A stretch of 27,682 nt of DNA from Stentor roeselii (lineage: Eukaryota; Ciliophora; Heterotrichea; Heterotrichida; Stentoridae): NCBI GenBank assembly GCA_006503475.1, contig RSEH01000393.1, positions 1-27,682 of the forward strand, in the 5' to 3' direction. Made by a program: the position numbers and the translations under genes. Under the pieces are notes generated by a model, which was not told where the DNA came from, ran no database searches, and saw only the letters and a program-made list of their open reading frames with translations. Of this stretch, positions 313 through 27,682 are shown one piece after another (positions within the stretch are counted from its first letter, which is position 1; each line of letters begins with the position of its first letter).

Positions 313-1462
313 CTTTTTCTTTTCCGAAATAAATTACCCTGATAACAAAATTTGTATATTGTTTATTTGTATCCATTATATTTTTTGCATAATCTTCTTC
401 AAATATCTGAATCAAGCCTTTATTTATCGTATAATTCTTATTGTTGTTACCTTGTTTTTTAACTTCGATAATATAAATAGTATTCTTACTGTTTTTAGGC
501 TTTATTAAAAGATTGATTCTCTTACCAACCAAGGTATTATATTCTAATTCCGCAGTAAATTCATCTGTAATTACACTAAAATAAAGCATGACTTGAAAAT
601 AAAACTCTGGATAATGCTTTTCTTTAGAGTTTTTTAGAACTCTTTCTTGAAAAACTTTGATTAAGATTTTTGGATTTTCAAATTCATTTTGTTTGAGTTT
701 TACATCAAAGAGTCTGAATTCTTCTTCGGTTAACCAAGCACGAACGAAGTGTTTATAGTATTCATATCTCACCTCGTTATTTGGGATGCGGAATACATTT
801 TCCCTATTAGTTGAAGTTAAAAACCCTGCATCTAGCATCAATGTCAAGAGTGAATCTTCACTAAAATGAAGCTCATCAAGTATAATTCCTTTAGTAGGTA
901 TGAAATATACTTCTTCTGATTTGATTAAAGTATCAATTTTACATTTTGTATGCTCATTTTTTGTTTCTTGTTTATTTTTTCTATTTTGTTGAAGCGCTTT
1001 TATCAGAAATTGCGGATTACCACTATTCAACCAATATTTCTCATAAGGCGATGGTTTTTTGGCGGCGATACGGCAGAGGCAATTCATCACTGACCAAGGA
1101 TTATGTATCATAGTATTATCAATCTTATACCTATTATACAACCGAGCCATATTTTCTTTTATAATTTCTTCACTATCGGCATCATTCGTGATTTTTTTAA
1201 CTTTTTTTATCAATTCATCAACTTCCAGCTCAGTGAACCCATAATGTTCAGTATAGTGCGGGTGCCAAACTGAATCGTGATAGAAATTATTAAGTCCGGA
1301 AAAAATATCTTCTTTGGATATTTGAGTTATCCCAGTGAAAACTGACAGTTGAACTAGTGGGGCCTGATGTTTAATGAATTTAAAAAGGCTCACAAACTGG
1401 TTGATTGTAAATTGGTATAGATCAGGTCTTAATGTATTTATTTTTACCAATAAACTGTCGTA

Positions 1463-1531
1463 TTTTAATCACGAAAATTGTTTGAAGGATGGTACTTTAG
1501 TAACAAGCCACTAACATGTCCTGCAATCGTA
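1463..1531. mobile_element. 69-bp insertion with 5-bp direct repeat, IES-like
   Basis: Compared with the right copy, the left nuclease gene carries 69 extra bases exactly after the Walker B codons. The insert is bounded by the direct repeat TCGTA (1458-1462 and 1527-1531 on the + strand), which contains a TA dinucleotide. Leaving out one repeat plus the insert leaves the DEYDSLLVK reading, matching DEYDRLLVK in the right copy. It cannot be a normal spliceosomal intron because no choice of boundary starts with GT. Precise TA-bounded insertions of this size are typical of ciliate internal eliminated sequences; a small transposon or a simple duplication-insertion remains possible. Confidence 0.5.
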
Positions 1532-2987: not shown

Positions 2988-3414
2988 ATACAGAAGGCAT
3001 TGAAGAGGCGTAAAGATAATAATGTAGCAGTTATAATACTTAAAGGAGCGATTTAAAGTTAAAATGCTCTTATTTCTAAAATTTCACGTAAGAAAAAGAG
3101 GTATCTATTGAAAGCTGCGGAACTTAATTAAGAAAGTAAGTCTTTATTCTTGAAAAATTCTAAATTCTCAAAGTTCATCAAGATCATATAATCAACAATT
3201 ATCCTTCTTAAATACTTATCAAATCCCCTTAAATTTATTTTAAAATCATATAAAATTATCCTGCTTAAAACTTGCAGGTTTTTAAGTATTTTAGTTAGAC
3301 TTATTTTTGCATTTCTTCTCCAGACATCAAGAGATTTAAATCTCACAATTATTAACTTTAAAAGGGTAGCAAAATTATATAATGGCCCGCAGAGCACTTA
3401 TCAGCAAACACATT
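2988..3414 (+). repeat. Left arm of long degenerate inverted repeat
   Basis: This segment is the approximate reverse complement of 23184-23582. Matching blocks include ATACAGAAGGCAT, AAGAGGCGTAAAGATAATAA, TTGAAAGCTGCGGAACTTAA, the AGCAAAATTATATAATGGCC block and CTTATCAGCAAAC. The inner end lies inside the first 11 codons of the gene starting at 3382; identity fades after about 3414. Both arms carry small indels and stops, so neither is an intact gene. A codable remnant on one strand reads KRRKDNNVAVIILKG and LLKAAELN; I do not recognise it. Confidence 0.75.
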
Positions 3415-6871: not shown

Positions 6872-8290
6872 ATGGAGGTGAAAAAGGCGAGCGAATATTT
6901 AGAAGAAATCGGCTGGGGCAAGTACAATCTAAAGATTTTCATCCAATGTGGATTTGTAACACTTACTTAGGCCTGGTCAACCGACATGTTATGGTCGAAC
7001 AACGTTGCCTACATCCTGGAAGGCTCTCGTGAGGATTTCGGATTGTCAGGCATTGAAGTAGGTCTTCTGGGTGCTTGTTTTCCCTTCGGCCTGATGGTCG
7101 GTGCGTTTGTTTGGGGAGTGACGGGTGACCGTTACGGAAGAATGTACGCTTTTAAGACAACTGTCGTGATAGCAACTATATTTTCATTAATCCTAACAGT
7201 TTCAGTCCACCCTGCAATGAGCGCCATTTGTTTGTTTTTCTTAGGAGCTGGCATGGGAGGAGAACTTTCATTGGGAGGGACAGTCTTTTGTGAGTTTTGT
7301 CCACCTTCCAAATTGTACTACTTGACCAGAATGGCTACTTTTTGGGGAGCTGGAGGAACTCTTTCGGCTTTGGTCGCACTTATTGTGGTACTCACGAATA
7401 ATACTGGAATTAGCAGTTGGAGGTTTATTGTCGGAAGTGCTTTTGTTGTCGAATTACTTTGTATGATTTTTAGGTTTTCACTTGAAGAGACTCCAGCGTT
7501 TTGTCAGGAATCTGGGCAGGTCAATAGGATGGAAAATATTTTGAATAATGTTTCGAAGGAAAATACTTCGAATGAACTTGTTTTTGATACTAGGATGAAA
7601 TCTACTTTAAAGGATTCCGTGACTAGTATTGAGCAAGTTCGTGATACCGATTCATGGACATTAATTAAACGTCTATTCGCTTCGGGAAACCTAAAGAAAG
7701 TGTTAATATTCGGCCTTGTAACCTTAACATAGATGTACAGTTCTGCAGCCTTTGCCTATACCAGTATCCTTTACTTCATGCCAGTATTCCTGGCAAAGTT
7801 AGACCTCGCGACAGCCTACGGAATAATTTTACTTCAACAAGGCCTGGGTGTTCCTGGAACAATGATCGGAAGTTGGTTAGTCGAAACAAGACTAGGTCGT
7901 AAATTTACCATCACCTTTTCCTTCGCCCTTGCAGGAGTCTGTTGTTTTTTATTTTACATCGAAGCCAATATCTACTCAGTAACCTTTACTTAGATTATCA
8001 TCAACACCTCAATAATGAACCTGGTGGCGATCATGGGTTACAGCGCAGTTTACACCATCACTCCCGAGTCTTATTCAACTGACGTGCGAAATATGGGAGT
8101 CGGAGCTGCCAACATCTGTGCTCGAGTCTCAGGAGTCATCTGCCCGATCTTCACCGGCTGGCTTTTGACTGAAAAAGGCGGGTTTGAATTAGCGATTACT
8201 TTATTCGCGATACTCTTCGGAGTAACAGCGGTTTCTTCAATTCCGCTGAAAGAAACAAGGCCAAGTCGAGAAAATAAGACTTTGATTTAA
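6872..8290 (+). CDS. MFS transporter of SV2/SVOP type with three 15-nt introns
   Basis: Four exons (6872-6955, 6971-7717, 7733-7978, 7994-8290) join to a 457-residue membrane protein. Without splicing, each intron places a TAG in frame. Joined, the junctions read GF-AWSTDMLW, FGL-MYSSAAF and YS-IIINTS, as expected for membrane helices. The MFS signature GDRYGR lies after helix 2, the acidic LEETPAFC motif follows helix 6, and the SVOP-like ITPESYSTDVRNMGVG segment lies in the C-terminal half, where families of organic-ion transporters have PE-YPT-RA-G. The substrate cannot be read from sequence. The start ATG at 6872 precedes a 28-codon first exon (MEVKKASEYL...). The next gene begins 34 nt after the stop. 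Confidence 0.88.
6956..6970 (+). other. 15-nt spliceosomal intron 1 of the MFS gene
   Basis: GTAACACTTACTTAG separates the codons for GF and AW in phase 0. Skipping it avoids an in-frame TAG and gives a normal MFS helix 1. Confidence 0.85.
7718..7732 (+). other. 15-nt spliceosomal intron 2 of the MFS gene
   Basis: GTAACCTTAACATAG separates FGL from MYSSAAF in phase 0 and removes an in-frame TAG. Confidence 0.85.
7979..7993 (+). other. 15-nt spliceosomal intron 3 of the MFS gene
   Basis: GTAACCTTTACTTAG separates YS from IIINTS in phase 0 and removes an in-frame TAG. It differs from intron 2 at only two positions. Confidence 0.85.
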
Positions 8291-8324
8291 CAATAGTTAA
8301 TTTCTCAGATATAATAAAACGGAC

Positions 8325-11300
8325 ATGCTTTTATTGATCATCATCAGCTTTTCAACTTGTAATTCAATTGACTTGTATACTTCGAACAAGTACGTCGTTG
8401 AATTTTCTTGTGAAGAAAATAAAGAGTTATGTGGACATTGTTCTGCTGATTTGATTTACAAGGTTGAGGATAAAGTTCTATTTGAAATTGAAGGACACTT
8501 GTCGACAACGATAGAAATTGTTAAAGATTTGATTAAAGACCTGCAAGGTTTTTTACAGGCAGACGAGTGGTTTCTTTCTCTTGATTCTCAGAACTTTTGT
8601 TTGAACCTGAAAGAAATTGAAAGTGAGGACTTCCCAGGACTACTAAAAACTTTTCTTGATATTGAGTATTCTGACTACCGTCTTCCAGAAATAGAGAAAA
8701 ATTCAGAACTGAAGCAAGTTTTCGTAATAACTGAAACTGGAGCCTCTTCAAATTACTTAACTTCAAGTATTAAAATCGACTACTCATTAAGCAGCAGCTT
8801 TTTAGTCGCTGATCAGGTTGACTTGAAAGGAAAGGAAAAACGTTTGGATTTGTTTCATGGGCAAGGAGTGACTTTTTATTCAGGAGTCGCTGAAACTTCA
8901 GTCCTTTCCCCGAATTTCTTTTTAAACTTTCCTTACGGAACTGAACCTGATAAAGTCGAGGTCTTGATTGAAACAAAATCTGAAGTCCTTCTAAGCAGCT
9001 GGTATAATTCAACTTATTCCAATGCAGGATGTGAAAATGTCCCAAGTCCCACTGGTCTTGACTCAGTTCATCAACTTCCAGTCAACAAAAGTTTTTTAAT
9101 CTTCAAAGTTTCCTCTACTTTAACATTAGAAAGCTTTTCAAGTCAAGTCTTTCCTCCAGACTTTTCAACATATCCAGGAATTTTTTTGTATGATGTCGAG
9201 GCTCTTATGACTGTCAGTGGAAAATGTGGACTTTTAGTTCAAGCTTTTTGGGAAAATGAAAAAATCTGGAATGTAAGTTTATATGCACAGGAAAATCAAG
9301 AGTTTTATTTAAATGCACGACTTTTTAATGCACCTTTTGAATTGGAAATGATGGAGTTTTCTGAGATTTTAGAAAGTTTTTATGTGAATTTTTCAGGGAT
9401 TTTTCCTCAGTATTTAAATGATTCGCAAGTTTTAGAGAAGATTAATGAGTTGGTGTTGCAAAGTCCTTTAGTTGTTATTGGATTTAATCCTGAAGCGAAT
9501 GTTGAAATGACGAGTGCAGCAAAGTTGGAGGACTCTGGAGATGTGGAGGTTTTTTTGAATACTTTTAGAAGAAACTCGGTGGTTCAGACAGTTGGAGAAA
9601 TAAAGACTCGAAAGGTTTATGAATTGTTTGGAATTAGTCAACTTTCTGATAATGAATTTCATCTTGATTCAGTAAATCTCGCACTTGATGGAGTCAATTT
9701 GAATGTAAATGTTTCAATGTCTTTAAACTGCAGAAATTCAGCTGTTTGTCTGGCAGTGGAAAACTCGTTAAATGATTCAGTTCTTACGAATTTAACTGGA
9801 ATTTACCTTCCAGAAGACTTTTTAGTTATTCAAGATGTTGAAAGTGTTGAAATTGTTGGACTGGAAATTGATTCTGCACAGGTTTTAATCAATTTCACTG
9901 AAAACTCGGTAAATCTTAATGGAAGTGTTTTTATTAATTTAGGAGCTCAGAAACTTACTTTGTATGAATGTTTTGTTTATAGTGATCAGGGATTAGCGAA
10001 ATTTTATGGGGTTCAGGATAAGGAGTTTAAAGGAATGATGGGATGTGGAAATTTGTTTTTGTTTTACTCTGAGTTTTTACAGGGAGCTACTTTTGAAGAT
10101 ATTGTTTATGATCAGGTGTTTGGAATTTGTGGGTTTAAGGGAATTGAGGAAAGATGGACTGGAGATTTGACTTTGGAACTTACGGGGTATGAGACTGAAA
10201 GATATGCATGTTCCCTAAAATATGCTCCGATAAACACAGTCGTGAAATACTTAGCAGGTATGACAGATCCAGACTCTCTAATCTCATACCTAGACTTCCC
10301 ATACGGTATCACTCTATCCTACGAAGAAGACTTTACAATCGAAGAGCCCTTAACCATCTTAGGTTCCCCTTCCAAATCCTTCTTAAAAACACTTTACCTT
10401 CCCAACACCTTAAAATTTTCCCTGACCCTTCACGACTTTTCAACAGCTCACGGGAACATAAACTTATCATCAATATCAGGATCTCTAGAAATCTATTCAT
10501 CCTACTCTCAAGCAAGCTTTTTCAGCCTTATCAACCTTTGGAGTATTTCACAAGAATCAACCCTTTTCATCTCCTCCTCTTCTCTTTCCTTTTCACTCAC
10601 AGGGTACCCATTCAAAGGTATTTACAGCACAATTCTTTCTGTATCAGCAGATCTTTCCACATTCGACTTAGCTGAATGGAAAGTAAAGTTTTCTATAAGC
10701 TCTTCTTACATTGAAAGCCTTTCTTCTTCAGTAAATTCCAGTCTTGAGAACTGGGTGTTAGAAGGACAGTCAACTTTAGAAAAAGGTCGTATTTTGGTTA
10801 ATTCCTGGAAAGATCTGATGATCTCTTCTTCAGAAGACTTATGTGATGAAACATGTGGAAGTCACTTTTACTGTACTTCGAAATGGGAAGAAAAATGCAC
10901 TGAAAAGGCGAAAGTTTATAACTGCTCTGAAGAAATTCCTAGTTGTAACGCTGAAGTCACTTGTAAGTCCTACAAAAAGTCTTGTCTTGACGAAGAATGT
11001 TCTTCCTCCGTGTATTACTGCGAAGAGTACCTTGAAACATGTAGATATTCCAACAACACCCAATGCATCTCAGAATCTCTCATTGAAATCGGACCCGAAT
11101 GTTTAAATCACGAGTATCTCTGTGATTCTCAATCATTTCCAGAAGAATCCTGCAGAAGTAAATGCAATTTTTACTCAGATATAAACAGTTACTACAACCG
11201 ATGCTTTGAAATGGTGAACTCAAGTTACTATGAAAGTCTAGAAAACCTGGAAGGCTTTCTACAGATGTCAGGAGAATTATTCGAGATCTTCCAGATATTC

Positions 11301-14494: not shown

Positions 14495-15913
14495 ATGGCA
14501 GCAGTCTTATTCCTCTCAATAATGATCTACTCCGTTCAAAGTTCAATTCCAAAAATCGAAGGCGTCTGGGAACTAGACCCAAAAACCCTTGAAGAAGCTT
14601 TAAAAGTCCAGCCTGACCTTCTTGTCGAGTTTTACGCTCCCTGGTGCGAACACTGTCAGCGATTTGCTTCAGAGTACTCAAAACTAGCTTTTAAACTTGA
14701 TTCCCTTTCTCCTCCAATAAACATCGGGCGAATCGATGCAAGTAAATACGAAGAAATTGCCTCAACTTACAAGATTTCCGGGTTTCCAACTTTAAAATTC
14801 TTCACAAAAGGTAAAGTTCTTGACTACACAGAAAGCAAAGCATCAGAAGACCTTTTTGAATACATCTTAAGACGAAGCCGGTCAAACGTCAAGTATTTTA
14901 CAAGCCATTCTCAGTTAAAAGAACTAAAATCGACGAATACTGTCAATGTAGTCCTTTTTTCTTCTAATGAAACTGAACCACTACAGCTTCTTGAAGATCT
15001 TTCTAAAGACTTTCCAAAAATCGGCTTTTTTTTCACTGACTTGCTTGAATTGGCTGATGAATTCGGAGTTTCTCAGCCGAAAGTAGTGATTTTAAAAGAC
15101 TTTGATGAGAAAAGAGCTGATTTTTCTGGGGACTTTACTGAAGACTCTCTGAAAAATTTCATAAAAACTCATAAAAAACCTTTGGTGATGGAATTCACGA
15201 TGCAGACAGTTGAATTGTTATTCAAGGAAAGTACTCCAGGAGTCTTTTTACTGACACAGAACTACGAAAAATATCAGAGCATCTTTTTGAAAACTGCTGA
15301 AAAGTACAAAAATGACCTGCTTTTCATTCAAGATGATCTAAACACGGCCTTTGAAGGGAAACTTGCCATGTTCTTCGGTCTTGACCCAAAAGAACAGCCT
15401 TTGGTGATGTTGATCGACCCTCCGAACGAGATGAAAAAGTATCGACTTGCTGAAACCATCAGTTTGGCTTCTTTGGACTCGTTTTTAAAATCGTGGAAAG
15501 ATGGAAGTTTAACTCCTGCTCCTAAGTCTCAACCTGTGCCTTTAAAGCCAGATGATAATGGCGTTGTTGTTGTTGTTAGAAGTACTTTTAAGAAGATTGT
15601 CTTGGATGATACTAAAGATGTCTTGGTCGAGTTCTATGCACCTTGGTGTGGACATTGCTCGGCTTTTAAACCTGAATATGAGAAACTCGCTGAAAGCTTT
15701 AAGGAACATCCTACTGTTGTTATTGCGAAGATTGATGCTACTGAGAATGAAATTGATGGAGTGGAAATACAGGGATTTCCTACTTTTATTTTTTATCCTT
15801 GTGATATTAAGAGAGGAGTCGCTTTTACTGATGAGCGATCAGTCGCTAATTTGACTTCATTTATTAAAACTTATGCAAGGTATTATGTTGACTTGGGAAG
15901 GGGCCACATTTAA
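14495..15913 (+). CDS. Protein disulfide isomerase, four thioredoxin-like domains (a-b-b'-a')
   Basis: Starting from the ATG at 14495, the 472-residue protein has a signal peptide (MAAVLFLSIMIYSVQSS). A first thioredoxin domain has FYAPWCEHC (active-site Cys 51 and 54) and the cis-Pro segment ISGFPTLKFF. Two inactive thioredoxin-like domains follow. The last domain has FYAPWCGHC (Cys 385 and 388) and IQGFPTFIFY. It would form and rearrange disulfides of secreted proteins in the ER. The first motif is CEHC rather than the usual CGHC. The C-terminus (LGRGHI) is not a KDEL/HDEL retention signal, and the stop codon abuts the minisatellite that follows, so the tail may have been altered. Confidence 0.92.
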   Translation: MAAVLFLSIMIYSVQSSIPKIEGVWELDPKTLEEALKVQPDLLVEFYAPWCEHCQRFASEYSKLAFKLDSLSPPINIGRIDASKYEEIASTYKISGFPTLKFFTKGKVLDYTESKASEDLFEYILRRSRSNVKYFTSHSQLKELKSTNTVNVVLFSSNETEPLQLLEDLSKDFPKIGFFFTDLLELADEFGVSQPKVVILKDFDEKRADFSGDFTEDSLKNFIKTHKKPLVMEFTMQTVELLFKESTPGVFLLTQNYEKYQSIFLKTAEKYKNDLLFIQDDLNTAFEGKLAMFFGLDPKEQPLVMLIDPPNEMKKYRLAETISLASLDSFLKSWKDGSLTPAPKSQPVPLKPDDNGVVVVVRSTFKKIVLDDTKDVLVEFYAPWCGHCSAFKPEYEKLAESFKEHPTVVIAKIDATENEIDGVEIQGFPTFIFYPCDIKRGVAFTDERSVANLTSFIKTYARYYVDLGRGHI

Positions 15914-16460
15914 TGCCTTTATTAATTAGGGTTCATCATTATGACGATTAAATTTAATTAAGGTCAATACTATGACTAATAACTTTAACTAATAAGGGTT
16001 CATTATTATGATAACTATTGAATGCCTTAACTAAGGGTTCATCATTATAATGACTATTAATGACTTAACTAATTAGGGCCCATCACTATGAAGATTATCT
16101 TTAATGCTCAAACGAATTAGGGTCTATCATTGTGACTACACTTAACTAATAAGGGTCAATCATTATGATGACTATTGAATACCTCAACTAATAAGAGTCA
16201 ATCATTATCACGAATTTTTAATGCCTAAACGAAATAGGGTCTATCATTATTACTACAATTAATTCCTAAACTATTAATGTCCATAATTATGACTACTATT
16301 GAATACCTCAACTAATAAGGGTCAATCATTATGATGACCATTTAATACCTTAACCAATAAAGGTCAATGATTATGAAGACTATTTAATACCTAAACTAAT
16401 TACGGTCCATACAATAAAATCTCCATTAAATCCTAACTACCAATAAGTGTCCATCGTTTT
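15911..16460. repeat. Degenerate minisatellite, about 14 units of roughly 35-46 bp
   Basis: The + strand repeats a unit like AACTAATAAGGGTCAATCAT followed by TATGATGACTATTGAATACCT, with scattered substitutions and length changes. Units can be recognised from the PDI stop codon to past the Trm10 stop codon, filling the whole convergent intergenic gap. The last recognisable unit (ACCAATAAGTGTCCATCG) is part of the Trm10 coding end. No open reading frame crosses it. Confidence 0.85.
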
Positions 16461-23183: not shown

Positions 23184-23582
23184 AATGAGTTTGCTGATAA
23201 GCTCTCTGCAGGCCATTATATAATTTTGCTATCCTTTAAAATTATTAATTGTGAGATTTAATCCCTTAATGCCTGGAGAAGAAATGCAAAAATAAGTCTG
23301 ACTAAAATACTTAAAAACCTCCAACTTTAAAGTAGGATAGTTTTAATGATTTGATAAGTATTTAACAAGGATAATTGTTAATTATATTATCTGGATTTTA
23401 GTATTCAAAAATGTTTCAAGAATAAGAACATACTTTCTTTATTAAGTTCCGCAGCTTTCAATAGAAATCTCTCTCTACATACAAATTTAGAAAAAAAGCA
23501 TTTTAACTTTAAAATTTCTCCTTTAAGTATTATAACTGCTACATTATTATCTTTACGCCTCTTTGATATGCCTTCTGTATTG
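23184..23582 (-). repeat. Right arm of long degenerate inverted repeat
   Basis: This is the approximate reverse complement of 2988-3414. It includes a minus-strand copy of the upstream region and first 11 codons of the allantoinase-like gene (ATG at 23216, reading MACRELISKLI against MARRALISKHI). That reading runs to a stop after 18 codons. A minus-strand remnant (RRKDNNVAVIILKG, LLKAAELN) is more open here than in the left arm. Confidence 0.75.
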
Positions 23583-25020: not shown

Positions 25021-25669
25021 TCCTGCTTGATATAATATTTAGCTTTATACTAAAATTATTTACCTGTTGAAAGGTGTAAAACAGTTCGAAATGCTCATCT
25101 TGATATATTCTACTATAAATAATACGATTCAATAATGAGCAATCATTGAAATATAGGTTCATTATTGAAAGATTGAAGAAATGCCAGATTGATTTACTTT
25201 TGAATTTTGAAGTTGAATGATCTCTCATAATAATTGGTATAAATTTATTTTATTTCAATGAATAGACTATTACTTCAGTCTATTAAAATTTGCAAGCATA
25301 CAAAATAGAATGAACACATAAACAAATTAAAATTCAATTTGAAGTAACTTTACCCTTAAAGATTTTGCTCCAATTAAAGATAAAGAATTAAATTCTTGTA
25401 ATTATTAAGGCCTGACTAGTTAAACTGATTGAAAATAGAAGGATACGTGAATCAATCAAATTTTTGAAACTTTAAATCCGGAAATAACCAAATAAATTCA
25501 AAATTTTTCCAAAGTCAATTCAACAAACTAGAAAACTTAAAATGCTTAATCAAGAATCAATGCTTACTTCAAATTTTTTGCTATTGTTGCATTCCTTAAG
25601 AACCAATTTTACTTATCTCTACTTATATACGGTAGAAAAATATAATTTCGGAGATCAGACATCTTTATA
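25021..25669. other. Non-coding AT-rich stretch before the right nuclease copy
   Basis: No gene was recognised; the minus-strand frame at 25010-25228 has no family signature. The last 70 bp (about 25,600-25,669) resemble the sequence upstream of the left nuclease copy, including GGTAGAAAAATATAATTT and CAGACATCTTTATAATG, and probably contain the duplicated promoter. Confidence 0.5.
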
Positions 25670-27682
25670 ATGATTAATTGGCTGACTAGGCATACAAGGA
25701 AGGCGATCTCCTCTGTAGAAGCCATCAGAAGGACCTTCTCAACGAATGATGCTAACCTCGATAAACCTTTGGATATATTTCCTAGCATTCAGACTTTTGA
25801 TTATATTCTAAATGGGAACATCCTTCATGTAGATAATCACTGCTGATAATGGATATAATCAACATGAAACTGTTTTAATAACAAGGCCAAGGAGGTGGGG
25901 TAAATCACTAAACTTAAAAATGCTAGAGAGTTTTTTCCAGCCGAAATTCTCATTACAAGGGGATATTATCGAAGATCCTATAAAAAAAGAAAAATTTTAT
26001 CATATGTTAATTGGCGATAAAGAATTGCACATAAATCCACTTACAAGAGAATTAGGAAATACCAAGATAATCGATTTACAAGGAACAATACCCGTGATTC
26101 CTATTACTTTTAATATCATCAATAAAATATCTGAAATCAAAATTAAATTAGAATTTATAGAGGCAATCAGAAAGGGAATCATACCTCATGAGTACTTAAT
26201 TAATTCACCGAAAGTAAAGAACTCTGGCCATAAAAAAATATTTAAAATGTATCAAGGGCAAGATAAGGAACTTTTACTTACAAAAAATATTGATGATCAT
26301 CTTCTTTACTTAGTAGAATCTTTAAATAACCATCATAACAGGAAGCCGATCATACTTGTGGACGAATACGACAGACTCTTGGTAAAAATAAATACTTTAC
26401 GTCCTGAGTTATATGAGTATGCAATTGACATGTTTATAAGGATTTTTTCATTCATTAAAAATTGTGCTGATATAGTTCAACTCTCAGTTTTCACCGGGAT
26501 AACTCGAATCGCAAAGGATTTTTTTTCTGGACTCAATAATCTCTGTCACGATTCAGTTTTTGAGCCATACTATACTGAACATTTTGGGTTCACTGAGCTC
26601 GAAGTTGATGGATTGATAAAAAAAATTAAAAAAATCACAAATGATATTGAAAGCGAAGATATTATCAAAGAAAAAATGACTCGGATGTATAATGGGTATA
26701 GGATTGATAAGACAATAATATATAATCCTTGGTCAGTGATGAATTGCGTCTGCCGTCTGGCCACCAAAAAATCATCGCCTTATAATAAATATTGGTTGAA
26801 TAGTGGTAATCAGCGATTTCTGAAAAAAGCGCTTCAAGAATATAGAAAAGATAAAGAAGAAAAAAAAAATAAGGAATGTAAAATTGAAACTTTAATCAAA
26901 TCAGGAGAAGTGTACTTCGAACCTGGTGAAGGAATAGAAATTGATAAGCTTTATTTTAGTGAAGATTCACTCTTGACACTGATGCTAGATTCAGGGTATT
27001 TAACTTCAACTGATAGGGAAAATGTATTTCGCATCCCAAATAACGAGGTGAGATACGATTACTATAAACATTTGGTTCGTGCTTGGTTAACCGAAGAAGA
27101 ATTCAGAATCTTTGATGTTACACTCAAACAAAATGAATTTGAAAATCCAGACACTTTAAAAAAAAATTTTCAAGAAAAAGTTCTCAATTATACTAAAGAA
27201 AAGCATTATCCAGAGTTTTATTTTCAAGTCATGCTTTATTTTAGTGTCGGAACAAATGATTTTCCTGCGGAATTGGAACACAAAACTACGGATAGCAAAA
27301 GAATTGATCTCTTAATACAGCCTAAAAACAGTATGGATACTATTTATATCATTGAAGTTAAAAAAAAGATAGGAACAACAAGGATTATGACATAAATAAA
27401 GGCTTGAATCAAATTTTTGAAAAATATGCAGATTATATCATCAATAAAAAGAAACAATTTACAACTATTGTTATCAGGGTAGTTTATTTCGAAATGAATA
27501 AAGACTCAAAGGATTCAAATGATTCAAAAGATTCACAATGGAGTATTTCAATAGCTGAGCTCAAGTTTACAAGAGATAACTTGATTAGAGCAATCGATTA
27601 CTTTGTTCAAACAAAAGAACAATATAAAGAAAATCAAGCTGCTAAAGGAAAAGAAAAATCAAATTATCAAAAATTATTCGAA
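25670..27682 (+). pseudogene. AAA-ATPase-like / PD-(D/E)XK nuclease family gene, frameshifted, 3' end outside window (right copy)
   Basis: From the ATG at 25670 the protein matches the left copy (MINWLT, AISSVEAIRRTF) but shifts frame near 25,838. The second frame contains the P-loop RPRRWGKSLNL and Walker B IILVDEYDRLLVK, then the conserved YTEHFGFTELEVDGLIKKIK block and the nuclease core SKRIDLLIQP...IIEVKK, with the core Asp, Glu and Lys all present. A second shift occurs in a run of eight A at 27360-27367, after which the third frame continues to the window edge with the conserved tail (QWSISIAELKF). By comparison with the left copy only about a dozen codons are missing beyond the window. 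The two shifts may be real or assembly errors in homopolymers. Its nuclease centre is better preserved than in the left copy. Confidence 0.8.
27498..27540 (+). repeat. Tandem GATTCAAAN 9-mer repeat in nuclease linker
   Basis: About four GATTCAAA-type units encode KDS/NDS triplets between the nuclease core and the conserved QWSIS tail, at the position where the left copy has SKL/SKPS repeats. Confidence 0.6.

Follow-up and report, generated by a model that had tools for sequence, protein, structure and literature searches.

We found that the 69-nt insert which splits an AAA-ATPase/PD-(D/E)XK nuclease gene in the analysed window has a similar counterpart of 78 nt at the identical nucleotide of a distant paralogue, C252 (insert at 7670-7747). 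The new result is this C252 insert, at the same nucleotide as the window insert. Partial copies of the family end at this place as well and, judging from the compared sequences, the Walker B stretch of the nuclease family is a recurrent insertion-and-break site. As long as the insert is present, the protein of either gene would terminate soon after Walker B. Our tentative first choice is a candidate short eliminated-type (IES-like) element that is now kept in somatic DNA. This reading is placed ahead of break repair with copying between paralogues, which we consider nearly as likely.

Window and genome assembly

The window is the whole stretch of DNA that was analysed, namely the entire contig C337 (27,682 bases), and the genome assembly searched has 44,391,514 bases (44.4 Mb) in 522 contigs. 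A pattern search of the whole genome for telomere repeats, with three tandem CCCTAACA units, gave 547 overlapping matches (220 forward and 327 reverse), compared to 0 for the reversed control. Among the matches listed, those on C26, C40, C48, C56 and C70 begin within the first 8 bases of the contig and others are at high contig coordinates. According to the excerpted text of PMC9942806, CCCTAACA is the telomere unit of Blepharisma. In the window, a sugar-transporter gene is interrupted by two 15-nt introns (7718-7732 and 7979-7993) and an IFT20 gene was found. Tiny introns are typical of Stentor. Taken together, the telomere unit, the 15-nt introns and IFT20 fit a heterotrich ciliate, and the assembly looks macronuclear. 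An irregular tandem repeat with several 42-nt steps lies at 15906-16452 of the window.

The insert in the window copy

The interrupted gene is read on the reverse strand. Its N-terminal half, a stop-to-stop frame at 1527-2254, matches AAA-ATPase_like (PF09820, E 4.6e-19) through Walker B, and its C-terminal half with PDDEXK_9 (PF08011, E 8.9e-07) extends over 257-1457, ending at TAA 257-259. The insert occupies 1458-1526, as placed by alignment to the right copy and to the other copies of the family. The right copy (25646-27682, forward strand) has no insert at the site; according to alignment and frame reading, it carries frameshifts near 25838-25868 and 27362-27368. The gene is thus present in inverted copies at both window ends (257-2254 and 25646-27682), and more inverted stretches are found further inside, at 3003-3414 and 23184-23563. 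Genome-wide the family is large, with at least 46 PF09820 matches and both intact and broken members. Very similar inverted family copies, both cut 56 nt past the insert site, lie at the two ends of contig C393 (L045 and L046) and are probably an unresolved assembly repeat.

An earlier note on this DNA had described a precise 69-nt insertion directly after the Walker B codons, having two in-frame stops. All of this was borne out. The alignment to the right copy has one clean gap of 69, LVDEYD (Walker B) immediately precedes the insert, and TAG (1511-1513) and TGA (1469-1471) are in the gene frame of the reverse strand within it. The 69-nt stretch is confirmed as a real insertion. The flanking repeat was given as TCGTA; a TA-containing repeat exists, but the true repeat is the 7-bp TCGTATT (AATACGA on the gene strand), found at 1458-1464 and, with an offset of 69, at 1527-1533. 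Every 69-nt register inside this repeat is equivalent as an insert boundary. By a rough formula, the chance of a 7-bp flanking repeat is approximately 5e-4. Of the 22 TA-containing repeats whose removal keeps the frame of the window copy open, the longest is the one that bounds the 69 nt.

Omission of the insert was also said to give the same reading as the undisrupted right copy. Although the right copy is indeed without the insert, its two frameshifts do not allow it to be called undisrupted. Deleting the 69 nt opens the frame across the site, but the TAA at 257-259, a third in-frame stop of the reverse strand by frame reading, persists ahead of the conserved C-terminal tail and still stops the window copy. 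Past this stop the frame continues through the tail, which is conserved among the relatives.

The similar insert in C252

The junction set comprised 42 copies. C509b breaks before the site, leaving 41 copies that reach it, and the right copy brings the number to 42 again. Two of these 42, the window copy and C252, have an insert at the site and the other 40 do not. Two TGA stops open the C252 insert, and the stretch that was read (6947-9299) is otherwise free of stops. The two inserts begin alike after GAATACGA; in a gapped alignment, 50 of the 58 aligned letters are equal, with 8 mismatches and 16 gap columns.

The score of the insert pair was reached by 0 of 2000 shuffles, and by 0 of 40,389 and 0 of 40,306 overlapping windows taken from 21 loci of the genome. 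However, the two initial alignment scorings had been picked after both insert sequences were known, and we therefore redid the test in a global and a local mode, each with ten scorings. Nine of the ten global scorings had at most one of 28,843 windows (overlapping, from 21 loci) at the observed value, and the tenth had 59. In local mode, five scorings had no window at the observed value; the other five, which have harsh gap costs, gave p values of 0.00059, 0.00097, 0.015, 0.043 and 0.32. The score anchored at the 5' end was 44, compared to a maximum of 31 in the 28,843 windows. Neither blastn nor nhmmer detected the likeness between the window and C252 inserts, a single-sequence model built from the window insert scores C252 at 3.9 bits (E 2.4), and the MAFFT alignment of both inserts is poor.

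DNA searches of the genome with each insert matched the query only and missed the other insert. Two patterns derived from both inserts found no third place in the 44.4-Mb genome, with 0 matches for the reversed controls; as the patterns were derived from the inserts, the absence of a third place is their only informative result. The patterns matched only the window and C252 inserts. We accordingly rejected a dispersed repeat or transposon within the limits of the searches, where diverged copies could escape because the DNA searches with either insert missed the other one. An origin of the insert from duplicated gene sequence was rejected too, since the matches were at chance level only.

The 78 nt of the C252 insert have no flanking repeat of their own in the sequence. 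There are 19 TA-containing repeats in C252 that leave an open frame and none removes exactly 78 nt, so that each of them either takes gene letters or leaves insert letters. At about 7660-7800 of C252, the 7-bp repeat TACGATT occurs twice, 123 nt apart, spanning the insert and 45 nt of the gene. The frame stays open when this stretch is taken out; the repeat probably comes from repeated Tyr-Asp codons.

History and constraint of the two genes

A tree built from 31 copies places the window copy together with C158a and C158b (support 100), with C379a and C379b next to them; C252 pairs with C476d (support 92) inside the C476 group (support 100). In the assembly, the sister copies of both genes are without the insert. 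At silent sites, the window and C252 genes have a dS of 1.20, with 41 of 84 four-fold sites equal, and diverge more than the inserts do. In the flanks, the two copies are as different as their groups, with 43 of 60 upstream compared to a group mean of 42.4 of 60, and 31 of 60 downstream compared to 31.9 of 60. Since the flanks are no more alike than the groups and the inserts are alike, either the insert reached both genes without flanks or constraint has preserved it. That a neutral insert was inherited vertically from a common ancestor is unlikely, because the silent sites are less alike than the inserts and the sisters are without insert. We also rejected gene conversion with long flanks, of which there was no sign in the 60 nt on either side.

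Only codons with agreement between two references were counted, a choice that favours conserved codons in every row. The terminal-branch pN/pS of the window copy was then 0.32-0.36 (0.25-0.41 for the part before the insert, 0.30-0.40 for the part after it), and seven relatives without insert span 0.24-0.57, a range that includes these values. By the same measure C252 had 0.54-0.56, and 0.59-0.76 after the insert, where constraint looks somewhat relaxed. Outside the insert, no frameshift was found in the window copy or in C252, though several indels separate the inserts themselves.

Breakpoints of partial copies

We compared each of 16 damaged or partial copies to its nearest intact relatives. 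Six of them run through the site, C121 has diverged too far, and two (C188 and the copy near 24 kb on C144) were too decayed to be placed; these nine were set aside, which left seven partial copies whose DNA edge is clear. Three of the seven end approximately 10 nt or less from the insert site. The edge of C520 is at -6 compared to C181 and at +7 compared to C70, that of C422 is at +10, and that of C365 is at +9 compared to C70 and at +40 compared to C476c, its junction being nearer by eye. The edge of C509b is at -47 to -49, and those of C266, the C476 copy near 97 kb and C360 are at least 183 nt from the site. With an even spread over 1,900 nt, the probability of three or more of seven is 4.6e-5 in this test, which was set up post hoc; without C520, which was the source of the idea, the probability of two or more of six is 1.8e-3 under the same spread and with the same post hoc standing. 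The sequences upstream of the broken C520, C422 and C365 were tried as versions of the insert and rejected as not significant, with 32 to 464 of 500 shuffles reaching the score.

Discussion

On the IES-like reading, the TA within the conserved Tyr codon would have been the entry point of the element, and its removal in macronuclear development may still go on or may have ceased only recently. A later change of its 3' boundary would have caused it to be kept in C252; it would also be kept in the assembled form of the window copy. The window insert with its 7-bp repeat containing TA, the similar C252 insert at the same nucleotide, the absence of dispersed copies in our searches, the partial copies that break at the same place, the pN/pS of the window copy, including the part after the insert, the lack of frameshifts outside the insert in both genes, and an assembly that looks heterotrich and macronuclear all speak for this reading. 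So does size, since 69 and 78 nt are both within the 65-115 bp range of short Blepharisma IESs; the likeness in size which the earlier note had drawn for the 69 nt is upheld by the excerpted text of PMC9942856. Against it are the lack of an exact TA-bounded cut in C252, the extra stop in the window copy, and the inserts being more alike than the silent sites of the genes. As the genes are more diverged at silent sites than the inserts, a neutral IES that was simply inherited would not give this pattern. Insert-free sister copies of both genes, the failure of blastn, nhmmer and the single-sequence model to detect the likeness, the somewhat relaxed constraint of C252 past its insert, and searches for PF13843 and PF13358 without a match also count against it. 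The earlier proposal of a retained IES is partly supported, by the TA repeat of the window copy, by size and by a site common to two paralogues, and is weakened by the C252 boundaries and the extra stop.

Repair of breaks comes close behind and involves no programmed removal. The Walker B stretch would be prone to double-strand breaks, a filler of about 70 nt would have been copied to the second paralogue by repair, other breaks would have led to the truncations, and both genes would be young pseudogenes. Pseudogenes with filler DNA or paralogue-templated repair have a flanking repeat, broken copies and a redundant family. The present genes are like them in all three, and differ in that a similar insert is at one nucleotide in two distant paralogues which share no flanks. 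That two inserts and three of seven breakpoints meet at one place fits repair well, as do the abundance of broken copies in the family, the additional TAA at 257-259, inserts more alike than their host genes, and C252 having no exact TA-bounded cut. Repair accounts less easily for the lack of a common flank, the 60 nt up and down being as different as the groups, or for genes which, outside the insert, have no frameshift and few stops (none in the stretch read of C252 and one in the window copy), yet whose inserts have diverged. A further, unlikely reading is homing-like spread of a tiny non-coding element, where the conserved Walker B sequence of the nuclease family would be cut repeatedly and insert-bearing copies would serve as the repair template. 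One of the family's own nucleases, or else the machinery of developmental excision, would perhaps be the cutter; the insert would destroy the cut site and failed repairs would leave truncated copies.

We regard as very unlikely that the insert is dealt with at the RNA or translation level, as an unusual intron or by ribosomes passing it, although this would explain the constraint after the insert in the window copy. Spliceosomal removal had been declared excluded. This holds for a GT-AG removal of exactly 69 nt, which is impossible, but the frame of the window copy stays open after any of five other GT-AG removals. One of these five, of 57 nt, spares all gene letters ahead of the site, with four additional codons' worth of insert retained. 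Neither gene, however, has an exact GT-AG solution, and no intron giving the reading of the relatives was found. C252 has one GT-AG solution, of 153 nt, i.e., 75 beyond the insert. AT-AC pairs give 19 and 45 solutions, too numerous to mean much, and among the first 15 listed per gene none matches between the window copy and C252. Both introns placed in the window have only 15 nt, folding is not clearly above shuffles (z 1.07, 0.18, 0.07 and -0.93), and nothing scored above the cut-off of any Rfam family, on which ground a known structured RNA as the insert was rejected as well. Least probable of all, by a little, is that the inserts are unrelated and share the site by coincidence, or that one of them is an assembly artefact. 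The low score of the single-sequence model, the miss of C252 by blastn and nhmmer, genome searches that match the query only and local scorings with harsh gap costs (p up to 0.32) would agree with coincidence, but an insert at the identical nucleotide in two of 42 copies and gapped scores beyond background, above all the 5'-anchored one, do not.

Compared to the short TA-bound IESs of Blepharisma stoltei, as described in the excerpted parts of PMC9942856 (where short IESs are approximately 65-115 bp and TA-bound ones make up 30,212 of about 40,000 IESs), the present inserts are alike in a heterotrich-type genome, a size of 65-115 bp, a TA in the repeat, a position in coding sequence and non-repetitive content. 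They differ in being known from assembled DNA, in the missing exact TA-bounded solution of C252, and in lengths of 69 and 78 that are off the peaks of 65, 72 and 110 named there. In Paramecium, according to the excerpted PMC3464196, excision errors comprise both retained IESs and losses of neighbouring DNA. Its macronuclear TA-indels resemble our case in that retained inserts and losses from alternative boundaries meet at one place; in Paramecium these are minor forms in reads, whereas ours belong to the assembly itself and to paralogues that have diverged. No described Stentor IES was found in the literature searched, including the excerpted texts of PMC9942806, PMC9942856 and PMC3464196. Two loci of one assembly with similar inserts at one codon provide a cheap test case for eliminated sequence and, if they are not eliminated sequence, a nuclease family would have here a natural hot spot of breakage and repair.

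A PiggyBac-type domesticated transposase is the candidate excisase in Blepharisma and Paramecium. In the genome searched here, PiggyBac (PF13843) had 0 matches, with a control that was equally silent, and DDE_3 (PF13358) had 0 matches, with a control that responded in 3. The IS1595-type domain (PF12762) had 12 matches. Six of these are without stops, in open frames of 385-473 aa, and it is possible that these six genes are domesticated transposases.
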